From: Chloroflexota bacterium
GTDB taxonomy: Bacteria > Chloroflexota > Dormibacteria > CF-121
Direction of reading: 5' to 3'
NCBI GenBank assembly: GCA_005882775.1
Contig: VBDY01000124.1
Location: forward strand, 1-41,644
DNA length: 41,644 nt
Shown: piece by piece, positions 20,042 through 26,375 of the stretch
Position numbering within the stretch: position 1 is the stretch's first letter
How the letters are laid out: each line of letters begins with the position of its first letter
Translations under genes and position numbers: made by a program
The notes under the pieces: model-generated
Database searches by the model: none
Seen by the model: the letters and a program-made list of their open reading frames with translations, nothing else
Told to the model about the DNA's origin: nothing

Positions 20042-20825
20042 CCATACGGTCCCAGTCGAGCCGGTCAGCCGTCACACAGGGCCCGTCCTGACACGCCAGC
20101 AGGTAGCCGCCCCCACGCGCAGGCAGAGCGCATCCGAGGCAGGTCCCAATACCGCAGCCCATGGGCGTCTCCAGTGCAACCTGGACCCGCTCGAGGGGGA
20201 AGCCGAGCTCACGACAGGACCGGACCACGGCCAGGAGCATCTCGTTTGGCCCACACATGAAAAGCTCGACATCATCGTGAAGGGCTCTCGGTAATAGAGC
20301 CGTAACCCGACCGGTGTGTCCGGCGGAGCCGTCGTCGGTTGCGACCCGGACCTCGGCGCCCCGAAGGCGGTCCGCGGGAAGAAGCCAATCCGAAGATCTG
20401 GCACCCAGGAGCACAACAGTCCGGCGCCCGAGCCGGTCGCGCCCCTTGACCAGGCCGACGAAGGCCGCGATGCCCAGGCCGCCGGCGATGCAAACCGCGG
20501 TGCGATCCGGGCCGGGCGTCGCGAACCCGTTCCCAAGCGGACCCAGCAGCTCGACGGGTTGACCTGCTTCGCGCGCGCCCAACCAGGCACTGCCAGCTCC
20601 CACGACGCTGAAGATGAATCCGATCCGGCCGAGATCCGGGTTGGCCCAGGCGATGCTGTACGGTCGCCGAAGCAGAGTATGTTGCGCGTCCACGCCGAGT
20701 TGAAAGAACTGACCGGGCTTCGCCGCGACTGCGGCTTCCGGCTCGTGCAGTACCAGTTCTACGGCTGTCCGCATGGGCGCAGACCGCTCCAGGACGGTAG
20801 CCCGGCGAAGCGTCGCCACCGTCAT
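20031..20825 (-). CDS. pyrK: Dihydroorotate dehydrogenase B, electron-transfer subunit
   Basis: This 264-residue iron-sulphur flavoprotein passes electrons from PyrD to NAD. The FAD site has RRPYSIA (53-59), an NAD-binding Rossmann part begins near [12 protein letters not shown] (111-122), and the [2Fe-2S] ligands are Cys224, Cys229, Cys232 and Cys245 in the expected C-x4-C-x2-C-x12-C order. ATG 20825 overlaps the carAB stop by 4 bases. The frame continues upstream to 20954, but that part lies inside carAB and is not family-like. Confidence 0.93.
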
Positions 20826-23800
20826 GGCATCGCCGATTCCGGGATGCCCATCGACCGGTACTCGGTCAGAGTCGCCACCTGCCAGCGCGGATTGTGCCGG
20901 ACGTGGCGCAGCGCCTGGACCAAGGATCGGGCCGTATCCAGTGAGGTCAAGCACGGGATCCGGCGCTCGACCGAGGCGCGCCGGATCTCGTATCCGTCCC
21001 GCAGGGTCACCGGGCCAGCCTCCCGGGCGGAGCCATTTCCAGACACGGTATTCACCACCAGGTCGACGGCTCCGGAGCGGATCACGTCGATCACGTTGGG
21101 GTGGCCCTCACGAAGCTTGTCGACGGCAACGGCCTCGACGCCCGCCGCGGAGAGAAACCGCGCCGTGCCGGCGGTCGCGAATATCTTCAGCCCGAGCTCG
21201 CGCAAGGCTGCCACCACGGGCAGCGCCTCTGCCTTGTCTGCGTCTGCGATCGAGCAGAGAGCGCCGCCGTCAGGCGGCAACTCGTCCATGGTGGATAGGA
21301 AAGCCTTGTAGTGGGCGCTGGCGAGGTCTTCGGCAATGCCCATGGCTTCCCCGGTCGATTTCATCTCCGGTCCGAGCACCGCATCCACGGAGAGCAGCTT
21401 GGCCATCGAGAACACTGGTGCTTTGACAGCAAACAGGTTGCGGGCCGGGGTCAGGCCGCCCGGTTCCGGCAAGGGAATGCCCAGCGCAGCCTCGGTGGCC
21501 ATTCGAACCATGGGCACGCCGGTGACCTTGCTCAGGAAGGGCACCGTCCGGCTGGCCCGCGGGTTGACCTCCAGCACGTAGGGAACACCGTCCTGAAGGG
21601 CGAACTGCACGTTCATCAGGCCAACCACGCCGAGCCGCTGGGCAAGCGTCGTCGTGGAGGACACCACATTTGTCACCTCATCAGGCTTCAGCGAGATAGC
21701 CGGGTATACCGCGAAGGAATCCCCCGAATGGACACCAGCCCGCTCGACGTGCTCCAGGATCCCCGGAATCACGACCGTGCGGCCATCCGAGATGGCATCA
21801 ACATCGAGCTCGCGCCCAAGCAGGTACTTATCGACCAGGATGGGACCTCGCAGGCCCAGGGCGATGACCGCGTCGATGTAGCGGCGAAGATCCGAGGCCG
21901 AATGGACGATCTCCATCGCCCTGCCACCCAGTACGTACGAAGGTCGGACCACGACCGGGTAACCGACCCGAGCCGCAATCGCCAGCGCTTCCTCGGCGCT
22001 GGCGGCCGATCCACCGGGCGGACGGGGAATGCCGATCTCTCCCAGCAGGGCGTCGCAGCGCCGTCGGTCCTCGGCCAGGTCGATCGTATCCACGGTTGAA
22101 CCGAGCAGCCGGACGCCCGCTTCAGCCAGCCCGTCGGCAAGGTTTAGTCCGGTCTGCCCACCGAACTGGACGAGGACGCCGACCGGATCTTCACGACGAA
22201 GCACGTTCAGCACGCCCTCGAGGTCGAGCGGCTCGAAATAGAGGCGGCTGGAGGCATCGAAGTCGGTGCTCACCGTTTCCGGGTTGCTGTTGATGAGCAC
22301 GCTGTCGTAGCCGGCGGCCTGGAGCGCGTTTGACGCATGCACGCTGCAGTAGTCGAACTCAATCCCCTGACCGATACGGATGGGTCCCGATCCGACCACC
22401 GCCACCGGACGCCGGGTTGAGGCGAGGACCTCGTCCTCGTCTTCGAAGGTCGAGTAGTAATAGGGCGTTATCGCCTCGAACTCCGCAGCGCAGGTGTCGA
22501 CCTGCCTGAAGGTCGGCGGCATCACAGCCGGTACCGGCGCCTGGCTCAGCTCGCTGATCGAGGCATCCGAAAGGCCGGCCTGCTTTGCACGCCGGTATAG
22601 GCGCTCGTCGAGTGGTTCGGCGGCCAGCCGGCCTTCGAGTGAAACCATGCCGGCCAGACGCTGGGTGAACCAGGGCGCGTAGCCGGTGGCGCCGGAAACC
22701 TCCTCCGCAGAGAGCCCATCGCGCAGGGCCTGCAGGGCGGCAGGCAACCTGCGGTCGGTTGCTTGGTGCAAGAGATCGGAGCGACCTCGTAGCTCCGTAG
22801 CCGCCACAGGCCGCTGCTCGAGAGCCCGAAGCGCCTTGTTCAGGGCTCCCTCGAAGGTGCGCTCGATGGCCATCACCTCGCCCGTGGATTTCATCTGGGT
22901 ACCCAGCGTCCGGTCGGCGGCAGGGAACTTGTCGAACGGCCAGCGCGGAATCTTGACGACGCAGTAGTCCAGGGCCGGTTCAAAGGCGGCGCTTGTCTTC
23001 CCGGTGACCGCATTGGAAATCTCGTGCAGGTTCCGCCCGACCGCGATCTTGGCCGCTACCCGGGCGATCGGGTATCCGGTTGCCTTCGAGGCCAGCGCCG
23101 AGGAGCGGCTCACCCGGGGATTCACCTCAATCACGTAATAACCGTCGGATTCGGGGTCAAGGGCGAACTGGACGTTGCAGCCACCTTCAATCCGCAGCGC
23201 CCGGATGATGCGCAGCGCCGCCGAACGCAACATCTGTACCTGGCGGTCTGAGAGAGTCTGGCTGGGCGCGACCACAATGCTGTCGCCGGTGTGCACGCCC
23301 ATCGGGTCAAGGTTCTCCATGTTGCAGACCGCAATGCACGTGTCCTGGGCGTCGCGCATGACCTCGTACTCGATCTCCTTCCAGCCCAGCAGCGCTTGCT
23401 CCACCAGCACCTGCCGGATCGGACTGGCAGCCAGGCCTTCCTTGACCACGGCCTCCAGCTCGATCGGGGTGCCCGCCATTCCGCCACCTGTTCCCCCGAG
23501 GGTGTAGGCGGGTCGGACCACCAGAGGAAAGCCTATGTCGGCCGCGAACTCCTGCGCCTCCTCAACCGACACCACCGATCGACTCGCGGGGACCGGCTCT
23601 CCGATGCGCAGGAGCAGCTGCTTGAATGCTTCACGGTCCTCGGCGGCCCGGATGGAATCGAGCGGTGTGCCCAGAACGCGCACCGCATGGCGGTCGAGTA
23701 TGCCGGCATCAGCCATCCCGACGGCCAGGTTGAGCCCGGTCTGTCCGCCCAGGGTGGCGAGGAGTCCGTCGGGCCGCTCACGCTCGATAATGGCCTCGAG

Positions 23801-25231
23801 CGACTTCAGCGTGAGTGGCTCGATATAGATCCGGTCGGCCACGCCCTCGTCGGTCATGATGGTCGCCGGGTTCGAGTTGACCAGGATCGTGCGCACGCCC
23901 TCCTCGCGGAGCGCCTTGCATGCCTGGGTGCCGGCGTAGTCGAACTCCGCCGCCTGCCCGATCACGATCGGACCCGAGCCGATAACCAGCACAGACCTTG
24001 GCACACTACTGCCTCTATTGCGCGCGTCACGACGCGCGCTTTGGGCCGGCGGGCCCGGCTCGGGCCTGGATCGGCCCGCGCCTCCGGTAACGCGCGCGAT
24101 AGAGGCAGTGCTGGGCAACAGGTCCAGGAACTCGTCGAAGATGCCCTGGTTGTCCTGGGGACCCGGTGCGCCTTCGGGGTGGAACTGCACCGACCGCACC
24201 GGCAGCGAGCGATGTGACAGGCCCTCGACCGATCCATCGTGGAGGTTGCGATGGCTGACGTAGAATCCCTCAGCCTCGGAAAGGCCGGCGGGGTCCACCT
24301 CGAACTCGTGGTTCTGCGAGGTGATGGTGACTTTCCCGCTCCGCACGTCCATCACAGGGTGGTTCCCACCATGGTGGCCGAAGCGAAGGCGGCGGGTGCG
24401 TGCTCCGGCCGCCTGGCCGATCAGCTGATGACCCAGGCAGATACCGAGCAAGGGGATCCGGCCGATTAATGCGCGGGTGACCGCGACCGCCGGCTGAAGG
24501 CGTGCCGGATCGCCCGGCCCATTGGAGAGGACGACACCGTCCGGCTTGCGCGAGAGAATGGCTTCGACGCTAGCGTCATACGGCACCACGTCGACGGTGA
24601 GGCCACGCGAGCGCAACGAGCGCAGGATGTTCCGCTTGACGCCGAAGTCGACCAGCACCAGCCGCACGCCGGGCCACTGTCGCGATACGTCATGCGCAAT
24701 GGCGGGGTCGATCGGCTCGTCCACGTCGACGAACGCCCCGGAGACCTCTTTGACCAGGTCCTGCTCCTCAAGGGACGGGACGCCGCGGGCTCGCGCCACC
24801 AACGATTCGAGGTCCGCCGCGTCGTTTACGGTCACGATCACCCCACGCTGGGCGCCGGTCCCGCGTAGATGGCGCACCAAGCGCCGCGTATCGACGCCCG
24901 TGAGAATCGGCACACCGTAACTGTCCAACCACTCGCGGACTGACCCGTCCCGGCGCCAGTGCTGGTCGTCGGGACTGAGACTGCGGGTGATCAAGGCCCG
25001 CACCCATGGCCGGCCCGACTCCAGAAAGGCTTGACTGACTCCGTAGTTGCCGATCAAGGGGTAGGTCATGACCACCAGCTGGCCGGCATACGACGGATCC
25101 GACAGGACCTCCTGGTACCCGCTCATGCATGTGTTGAAAACGACCTCGCCTCCGGCATCGGTGGCGCTGCCTCCACGTTCACCCGAAAGCATGAAGCCGT
25201 CTTCGAGCACGAGCAGCATGCGCTCAGGCAA
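20822..25231 (-). CDS. carAB: Fused carbamoyl-phosphate synthase (CarA-CarB)
   Basis: A single 1469-residue frame contains both subunits, which make carbamoyl phosphate from glutamine, bicarbonate and ATP. CarA is residues 1-374: the GATase triad is Cys265 (LGICLGHQ), His351 and Glu353 (FHPEG). CarB is 410-1469: two ATP-grasp halves, each opening with V-x-GSGPI-x-IGQ, an oligomerisation part, and a C-terminal MGS domain for allosteric control. Residues 375-408 form a Pro/Arg/Gly-rich linker encoded by a 102-bp inverted-repeat segment. The TTG start has GGAGG 6 bases upstream and overlaps the pyrC stop. GTG 24004 (residue 410), with AGAGG 7 bases upstream, could also start a separate CarB. Bacteria usually keep these genes separate. 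Confidence 0.93.
24008..24109. repeat. 102-bp inverted-repeat element at the CarA-CarB junction
   Basis: Arms at 24008-24027 and 24090-24109 are complementary at 19 of 20 positions. The space between them is very GC-rich, and an extra perfect hairpin (arms GCGCGT/ACGCGC) lies next to the left arm. The segment is 102 bases long, exactly 34 codons, and matches the extra residues 375-408 between the two enzyme halves. In the carAB mRNA it would form a long stem whose 3' strand holds AGAGG, a possible ribosome site for internal initiation at GTG 24004. No target-site duplication or second copy was found in the window. Confidence 0.75.
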
Positions 25232-26375
25232 CTGCTACCTCCGCGCCATGCACCACTTTGCCCCCGACGACGGTCATGACGACGCGGCCGCGCATGCGCC
25301 GGCCCTTCAGCGGTGTGTTGTGCCCGCGGCTATAGAAGGATTCGGGCTCGACCAGCCACTCCTGGTCGGGATCGATCAGGATCCACTCGTCGAGGAGCTC
25401 CTGGCCGAGGATGCGGCGGGGCCCGGCGACGCATGCTCGGTGGACGACCTCCCAGGGCAGTCCCAGTGTCAGCACCGTGGCCAGCGCCGTCTCGAAACCG
25501 TGCAGACCGTAAGCCGCAGTTTCCTCGTCATGCTTCACCGCGTCCTCGTGGGGTGCGTGGTCGGTCGCAATCACATCGACGATGCCGTCGATGAGCGCGT
25601 CGCGAAGGGCGATCGCATCCGCGGCGGTACGTAGGGGCGGATTGACCTTGGCAAGCGGACCGCTGATTCGTAGCTCCGCTGCCGTCAGCGCGAGGTGATG
25701 AGGCGTGACCTCGGCTGTCAGGCGCAGTCCGGCTCCCTTGGCAGCCGCGATCAGGCCGATGCTTCCCTGGGTGCTGACATGTTGCAGATGGAGGTGGGCA
25801 TCCGCGGTGCGCCGCAACGCTTCGATGGCTTCGCGAATCGCCTCGACCTCCGCAGCCGGCTCCGTGCCGAGTCGCTCGAGCTGGGGATGGATCAGGACGG
25901 GAAGGCCGGCACCTCCGGCGCGCCAGAGACCGACCTCGAGCAGTCCTGCCTCGAGCGCGTGGCGGCCGTCATCCGAAAGGGCGACCGCGCCAGCGGATTT
26001 CAGAGCCCGGGCGTCGGTCAACGAATCGCCGGTCAGACCCTTGGTGAGCGCACCCACGAAGTCGACCTTGATCGGCAGCGCCTCGGACCGACGGCGGAGC
26101 TCGGTAAGGCGGCCGGCCGAGTCCGTGGGCGGATCGGTGTTCGCCATGGCAACCACGTGGGTGAACCCACCGGCGGCTGCACTTCGGGCCCCAGTCTCGA
26201 GCGTTTCCTTCTGCGGAGCCCCCGGGTCCCGCAGATGCGCATGCAGGTCCATCCACCCGGGCGAGAGGACGAGGCCCCGCGCGTCGCGATCGGGCTCGTC
26301 TCCGGCAGCGATGTAGAAGGTGTCCGGCGCGCTCAATCCGTTCGATCGGAGCAGCCGGGCGTGGTGCAGCCGCAT
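25224..26375 (-). CDS. pyrC: Dihydroorotase
   Basis: This 383-residue amidohydrolase closes carbamoyl-aspartate to dihydroorotate. The metal motif [10 protein letters not shown] (His45, His47) is the type I dihydroorotase signature. GALTKG, SDDGRH and the strand-8 ATDHAPH follow in order. As in the Bacillus/Aquifex group, the SDDG aspartate stands where other dihydroorotases have a carboxylated lysine. Its ATG overlaps the pyrR stop by one base (TGATG), and its end overlaps the carAB start by 8 bases. Confidence 0.94.

Follow-up and report, generated by a model that had tools for sequence, protein, structure and literature searches.

The window, that is, the whole stretch of 41,644 nucleotides analysed here, comes from the genome of a soil bacterium (G000; 2.85 Mb, a draft MAG of 234 contigs) that, judged by its kinship, is most likely a member of the Dormibacterota. 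Its minus strand carries a single open reading frame of 1469 amino acids that runs through the CarA-CarB junction without a stop codon and encodes both subunits of carbamoyl-phosphate synthase. According to Pfam, both subunits are complete, with the small-chain domain, the GATase, two synthetase halves and MGS, so that whole glutaminase and synthetase domains lie in one open frame, as expected of a fused carbamoyl-phosphate synthase. The original prediction of a single frame with a normal CarA end at residue 374 is thereby confirmed, CarA homology stopping there and CarB homology beginning at residue 412. The position of carAB 3' of a pyrC-like ORF is consistent with a pyr operon. The features of the locus are as follows.

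20822..25231, minus strand: fused carAB (carbamoyl-phosphate synthase, glutaminase plus synthetase), 1469 aa; from the ORF, Pfam and homology.
24110..25231, minus strand: CarA part (CPSase small chain domain and GATase), homology to residue 374; from Pfam and homology.
20822..24007, minus strand: CarB part, homology from residue 412; from Pfam and homology.
25224-26375: pyrC-like ORF, directly upstream of carAB; labelled by reading its translation.
24008..24109, no strand assigned: 102-bp palindromic insert, read in frame as 34 codons on the minus strand; from the arms (19/20), the fold (z -8.7) and AlphaFold pLDDT.
24011..24085, plus strand: full copy of the dispersed element, GCCTC...CTCC (match to model R1 at 24009-24087); from the genome search, with bounds from nested copies.
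24020..24039, plus strand: hairpin 1, GCGCGCGT-CACG-ACGCGCGC; from covariation over 26 copies.
24057..24082, plus strand: hairpin 2, in which GGC and GGGCC pair with GGCCC and GCC around a small internal loop; from covariation (one G-C/C-G pair, 7/26 copies).
24087..24109, minus strand: inverted partial copy of the first ~20 nt of the element, forming the right arm; from side-by-side alignment and the arm match.
24012..24016, minus strand: AGAGG, proposed Shine-Dalgarno sequence, within the element and paired in the predicted stem; from the RNA fold.
24002..24004, minus strand: GTG, proposed internal CarB start, for which the comparison of start signals gave no support.

The insert corresponds to about residues 375-408 of CarAB. 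Its arms (24008-24027 and 24090-24109) match at 19 of 20 positions, and this match together with the translation bears out the 102-bp unit with 20-base inverted ends and 34 in-frame codons that had been proposed. The RNA of the junction is predicted to fold with z-scores of -6.9 and -8.7, none of 200 shuffles being as stable. In the AlphaFold model of the fused CarAB, the two domains are predicted with high confidence and the insert with low confidence (pLDDT below 50 over most of its length, low at model residues 227-252, the insert occupying 226-259), as expected of a disordered spacer; the insert peptide is probably such a spacer and would affect the enzyme little. Alignment resolves the palindrome into one full two-hairpin repeat of 73-79 bp and an inverted partial copy of the start of that repeat. 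Since the right arm is this inverted partial copy, the palindrome is particular to the carAB copy, which is also atypical in an extra T before GCCTC. The earlier description of a small palindromic or MITE-like element therefore holds as far as a mobile, dispersed hairpin is concerned, but the unit that is repeated is the inner 73-79 bp (24009/24011-24085/24087) and not the 102 bp.

When the insert was searched against its own genome, about 28 other places matched it, only over about 24011-24087, and a covariance model recovered 26 copies at full length, plus about 5 that are partial or weak. The alignment of these copies defines the element as 73-79 bp with two hairpins, and across the 26 copies 4 pairs show changes on both sides, in 13 cells where shuffling predicts 2.3. 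The full copies other than that of carAB lie between predicted genes or at their edges, mostly in the same orientation as the adjoining co-directional genes where they are intergenic, and the carAB copy is the only one of the 26 that is clearly intragenic. Two further candidates flagged for gene overlap (L023 and L025) are doubtful as intragenic copies, the element lying before or at the likely gene start. On contig G000:C123 (42695-43113), two opposite-facing copies (L003/L010) surround about 260 bp to which no identity is assigned, and could represent a compound arrangement. The same covariance model found no copy in 60 relatives, 17 of them of the same family; this is the search of the genome and its relatives called for in the original prediction. 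Sequence searches of phages, plasmids and IMG/VR viral contigs likewise gave none. Judged by the genomes compared, the element is specific to the G000 lineage. Searches of Rfam matched no family to the carAB locus or to other expanded linkers, the microRNA names returned falling far under their gathering scores.

The evidence for mobility comes from nested copies, of which four lie inside others and two pairs share their arrangement at different loci. Cutting the insert of 73-75 nt out of the four nested copies leaves an outer element that is essentially intact, with no target duplication and with AC^G as the site, and this precise, duplication-free insertion indicates that the repeat is mobile. 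The sequence 5' of the element, read for 23 copies, has a corresponding preference: position -3 is A or T in 22 of 23 (P about 1e-9), position -2 is A in 18 and position -1 is C in 16. On these sequence grounds, the element is classed as a non-autonomous mobile hairpin. The features of a MITE are not those of the mobile unit: it runs GCCTC...GCCTCC, so that its ends are direct and not inverted, the 20-bp inverted arms belong only to the carAB copy, and the four nested excisions leave an intact target where a duplication would be sought. IS200/IS605-type elements carry subterminal hairpins, cause no target duplication and insert 3' of a short fixed motif. The G000 element resembles a non-autonomous member of this type in having a hairpin near each end, in leaving no duplication and in inserting 3' of WAC; it differs in that no Y1 transposase (PF01797) was matched in the G000 draft, which is about 94% complete and from which such a gene may be missing, or the gene may have been lost, so that an IS200/IS605-type mechanism is a putative one.

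The strong pair covariation, together with the shared orientation of intergenic copies and their co-directional neighbours, might instead be taken to mean that the repeats are selected structured RNAs or terminator-like signals rather than mobile DNA, the carAB copy being a stray. We consider this unlikely, since there are nested copies with exact, duplication-free insertion, the repeats have no Rfam match and they are missing from all 60 relatives. Covariation can, moreover, also stem from the homogenisation of hairpin arms by template switching, a process known in other systems (PMC8794818, PMC8604942).

A regulatory role had also been proposed: by covering a ribosome-binding sequence ahead of the GTG at 24004, the hairpin would set how much CarB is made free and how much as fused CarAB. 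The AGAGG does lie 7 nt before this GTG and is buried in the predicted stem, and that part of the proposal stands. The ratio control itself is very improbable: of 56 fused genes, 1 has a strong Shine-Dalgarno sequence with a start near the beginning of CarB, compared with 23 of 39 unfused genes, and most relatives lack a hairpin altogether. The near-absence of start signals from fused genes shows that internal initiation at CarB is not conserved. Nor is the palindrome at all likely to be an assembly artefact of a repeat, a reading to which we give slightly less weight still. The carAB locus does rest on one MAG assembly in 234 contigs, in which some repeats lie at contig ends (L004), but no exact match to another copy is longer than 34 bp, which makes misassembly unlikely, and the gene order is as expected, with the frame intact on both sides.

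The age of the fusion can be read from its distribution. The junction protein was present in 59 of the 61 genomes searched, and all 57 readable junctions of the class (from 56 genomes) are open and fused without a stop, while 56 of the 57 lack the G000 element. Linker length, counted between EFL and VLVI, is usually 29-32 aa (46 junctions), with 3 junctions at 35-39 aa and 8 at 44-92 aa; the linker of G020 measures 48 aa, and members of the G000 family mostly have linkers of 29 aa and no stop. Outside the class but within the same phylum, most junctions have stops or separate frames. In one genome from outside the class (G063, L236), CarAB is likewise a single fused frame, and its linker is 57 aa long. 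The comparison of carA-carB junctions that had been suggested thus places the element in a fusion that already existed, and by these alignments the CarA-CarB fusion is class-wide and older than the element. The idea that the element hit the carA stop and so created the fusion, being kept as a linker, draws on the coincidence of the extra codons with the palindrome and can be put aside as the least probable reading, given that genomes without the element, including same-family members with their 29-aa linkers, are fused and open throughout. The original prediction had named two observations that together would argue against a mobile element, namely a different linker in close relatives and the lack of other genomic copies. 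The first was made and the second was not; since other copies exist in G000, the mobile-element part stands. A limited literature search found no report of a bacterial CarAB fusion or of a Dormibacterota palindrome.

The reading we prefer, with a probability of about 0.82, is that a lineage-specific, non-autonomous mobile hairpin inserted at the glutaminase-synthetase linker of an already fused carAB. Without the 34 codons, the G000 linker measures 17 aa, 12 fewer than in its relatives, which suggests a partial loss of the old linker at or after the insertion, the insertion length and the 12-codon loss both being estimated from other genera. The proposed history would begin with the entry of the mobile hairpin into the linker, after which a fold-back template switch may have added the inverted partial copy and produced a 102-bp palindrome, a multiple of three; a second, inverted insertion followed by a deletion could also account for the inverted arm. 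About 12 codons of the old linker would have been lost, for a net gain of 22 codons over the usual 29-aa linker, and from then on selection would need only an open frame.

Expanded linkers in other genera are likewise built from dispersed hairpin repeats. The linker of G001 contains a C-rich hairpin with 40 matches in its genome, two of them identical over 33 bp; the linker repeat of G028 has three other copies; that of G022 matches 4 other places; and that of G050 has 11 matches, i.e., 10 other places, the best at 89% over 115 bp. The congeneric species G036 and G048 share a related element in their linkers. Four distinct repeat types occur: those of G000, of G001, of G028/G036/G022 and of G050. 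On a CarAB tree, three changes suffice to explain which linkers are normal and which expanded, and independent insertions are accordingly argued from the differing repeat sequences and not from the tree. That this linker has taken up dispersed hairpin repeats of unrelated sequence in other lineages makes it look like a tolerant, recurrently used landing site. Between G036 and G048, the inner part of the element is well conserved, and the outer arms are strongly different yet self-complementary, a pattern that would fit homogenisation of the arms by template switching, with selection on structure as the alternative. A broader proposal, to which we incline only slightly, is that in the Dormibacterota this linker receives unrelated mobile hairpin families in frame, which would recurrently make new protein sequence in an essential enzyme, and that template switching keeps the arms identical even as they change in sequence, G036 and G048 being an example.

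Some further repeats were seen in these genomes. The repeat of G028, G036 and G022 (L237 200-350, L238 230-366, L239 210-345, L209, L212, L256, L260) has a conserved core, GGCGAGTTCC...TGAGCAAG, and outer stems that differ at each locus and are still self-complementary; the repeats that were searched have no Rfam match. A DNA polymerase III alpha gene (DnaE-type) of G028 contains an in-frame copy of this family in the region of the HHH motif (L244 1440-1625); REPs have been described in DnaE2 genes of other bacteria (PMC3733652). Short C-rich/G-rich hairpin repeats occur in frame in G001 (L180, L183, L184, L190), e.g., in amidohydrolase and carboxyltransferase domains. The resemblance of the L053 linker, TAGGCCTCTCTTGCGGGCG, to the start of the G000 element was rejected as chance, its residues RPLLRAVGG aligning with the conserved linkers of relatives.

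Mobile palindromes within proteins have been known mainly from Rickettsia and from scattered REP cases, and were possibly a quirk of reduced genomes. A similar process would now be seen in soil bacteria, several lineages of which have different element families at one defined spot of an essential enzyme, so that the origin of new coding sequence from selfish DNA becomes testable. The same junctions provide a natural set of linker variants for a fused carbamoyl-phosphate synthase, and a CarA-CarB fusion shared by a whole bacterial class is a useful counterpart to CPS1 and CAD of eukaryotes.

Among known systems, the Rickettsia palindromic elements (RPE) are short dispersed palindromic repeats, one of which lies in frame inside a metabolic-enzyme gene (PMC10969869). 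The likeness to them that had been proposed holds for a palindromic repeat family dispersed in one genome, with 26 full copies and two covarying hairpins, and for a copy read in frame within a metabolic-enzyme gene. It does not extend to many in-frame copies in different genes, only the carAB copy of G000 being clearly intragenic, and the G000 element further differs in belonging to an unrelated bacterium, in its core of 73-79 bp with two separate hairpins, and in its site, a linker between domains that several repeat families have entered in related genera. By analogy, the carAB element would work like an RPE or an intragenic REP, which is a likeness of behaviour. REP elements (GTAG and CGTC tagged) measure 20-40 bp and are in some cases intragenic (PMC3733652); the G000 repeat shares their GC-rich hairpins, mostly intergenic and now and then inside open frames, but is longer, ends its consensus hairpin without a GTAG/CGTC tag and has no RAYT-type Y1 transposase (PF01797, 0 matches) in its genome. 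Human CPS1 (5dot, 6uel) similarly unites glutaminase-type and synthetase halves in one chain and aligns with CarAB over residues 7-1445; carAB, in contrast, is bacterial and its linker holds a mobile element. Finally, the coding palindromes of Nematomorpha mitochondria (PMC6649704) and the template-switch changes within genes of yeast (PMC8604942) are, like the carAB insert, translated inverted repeats with arms kept alike; as far as these two accounts go, no dispersed insertion element is described there, whereas for carAB the source repeat family has been identified.
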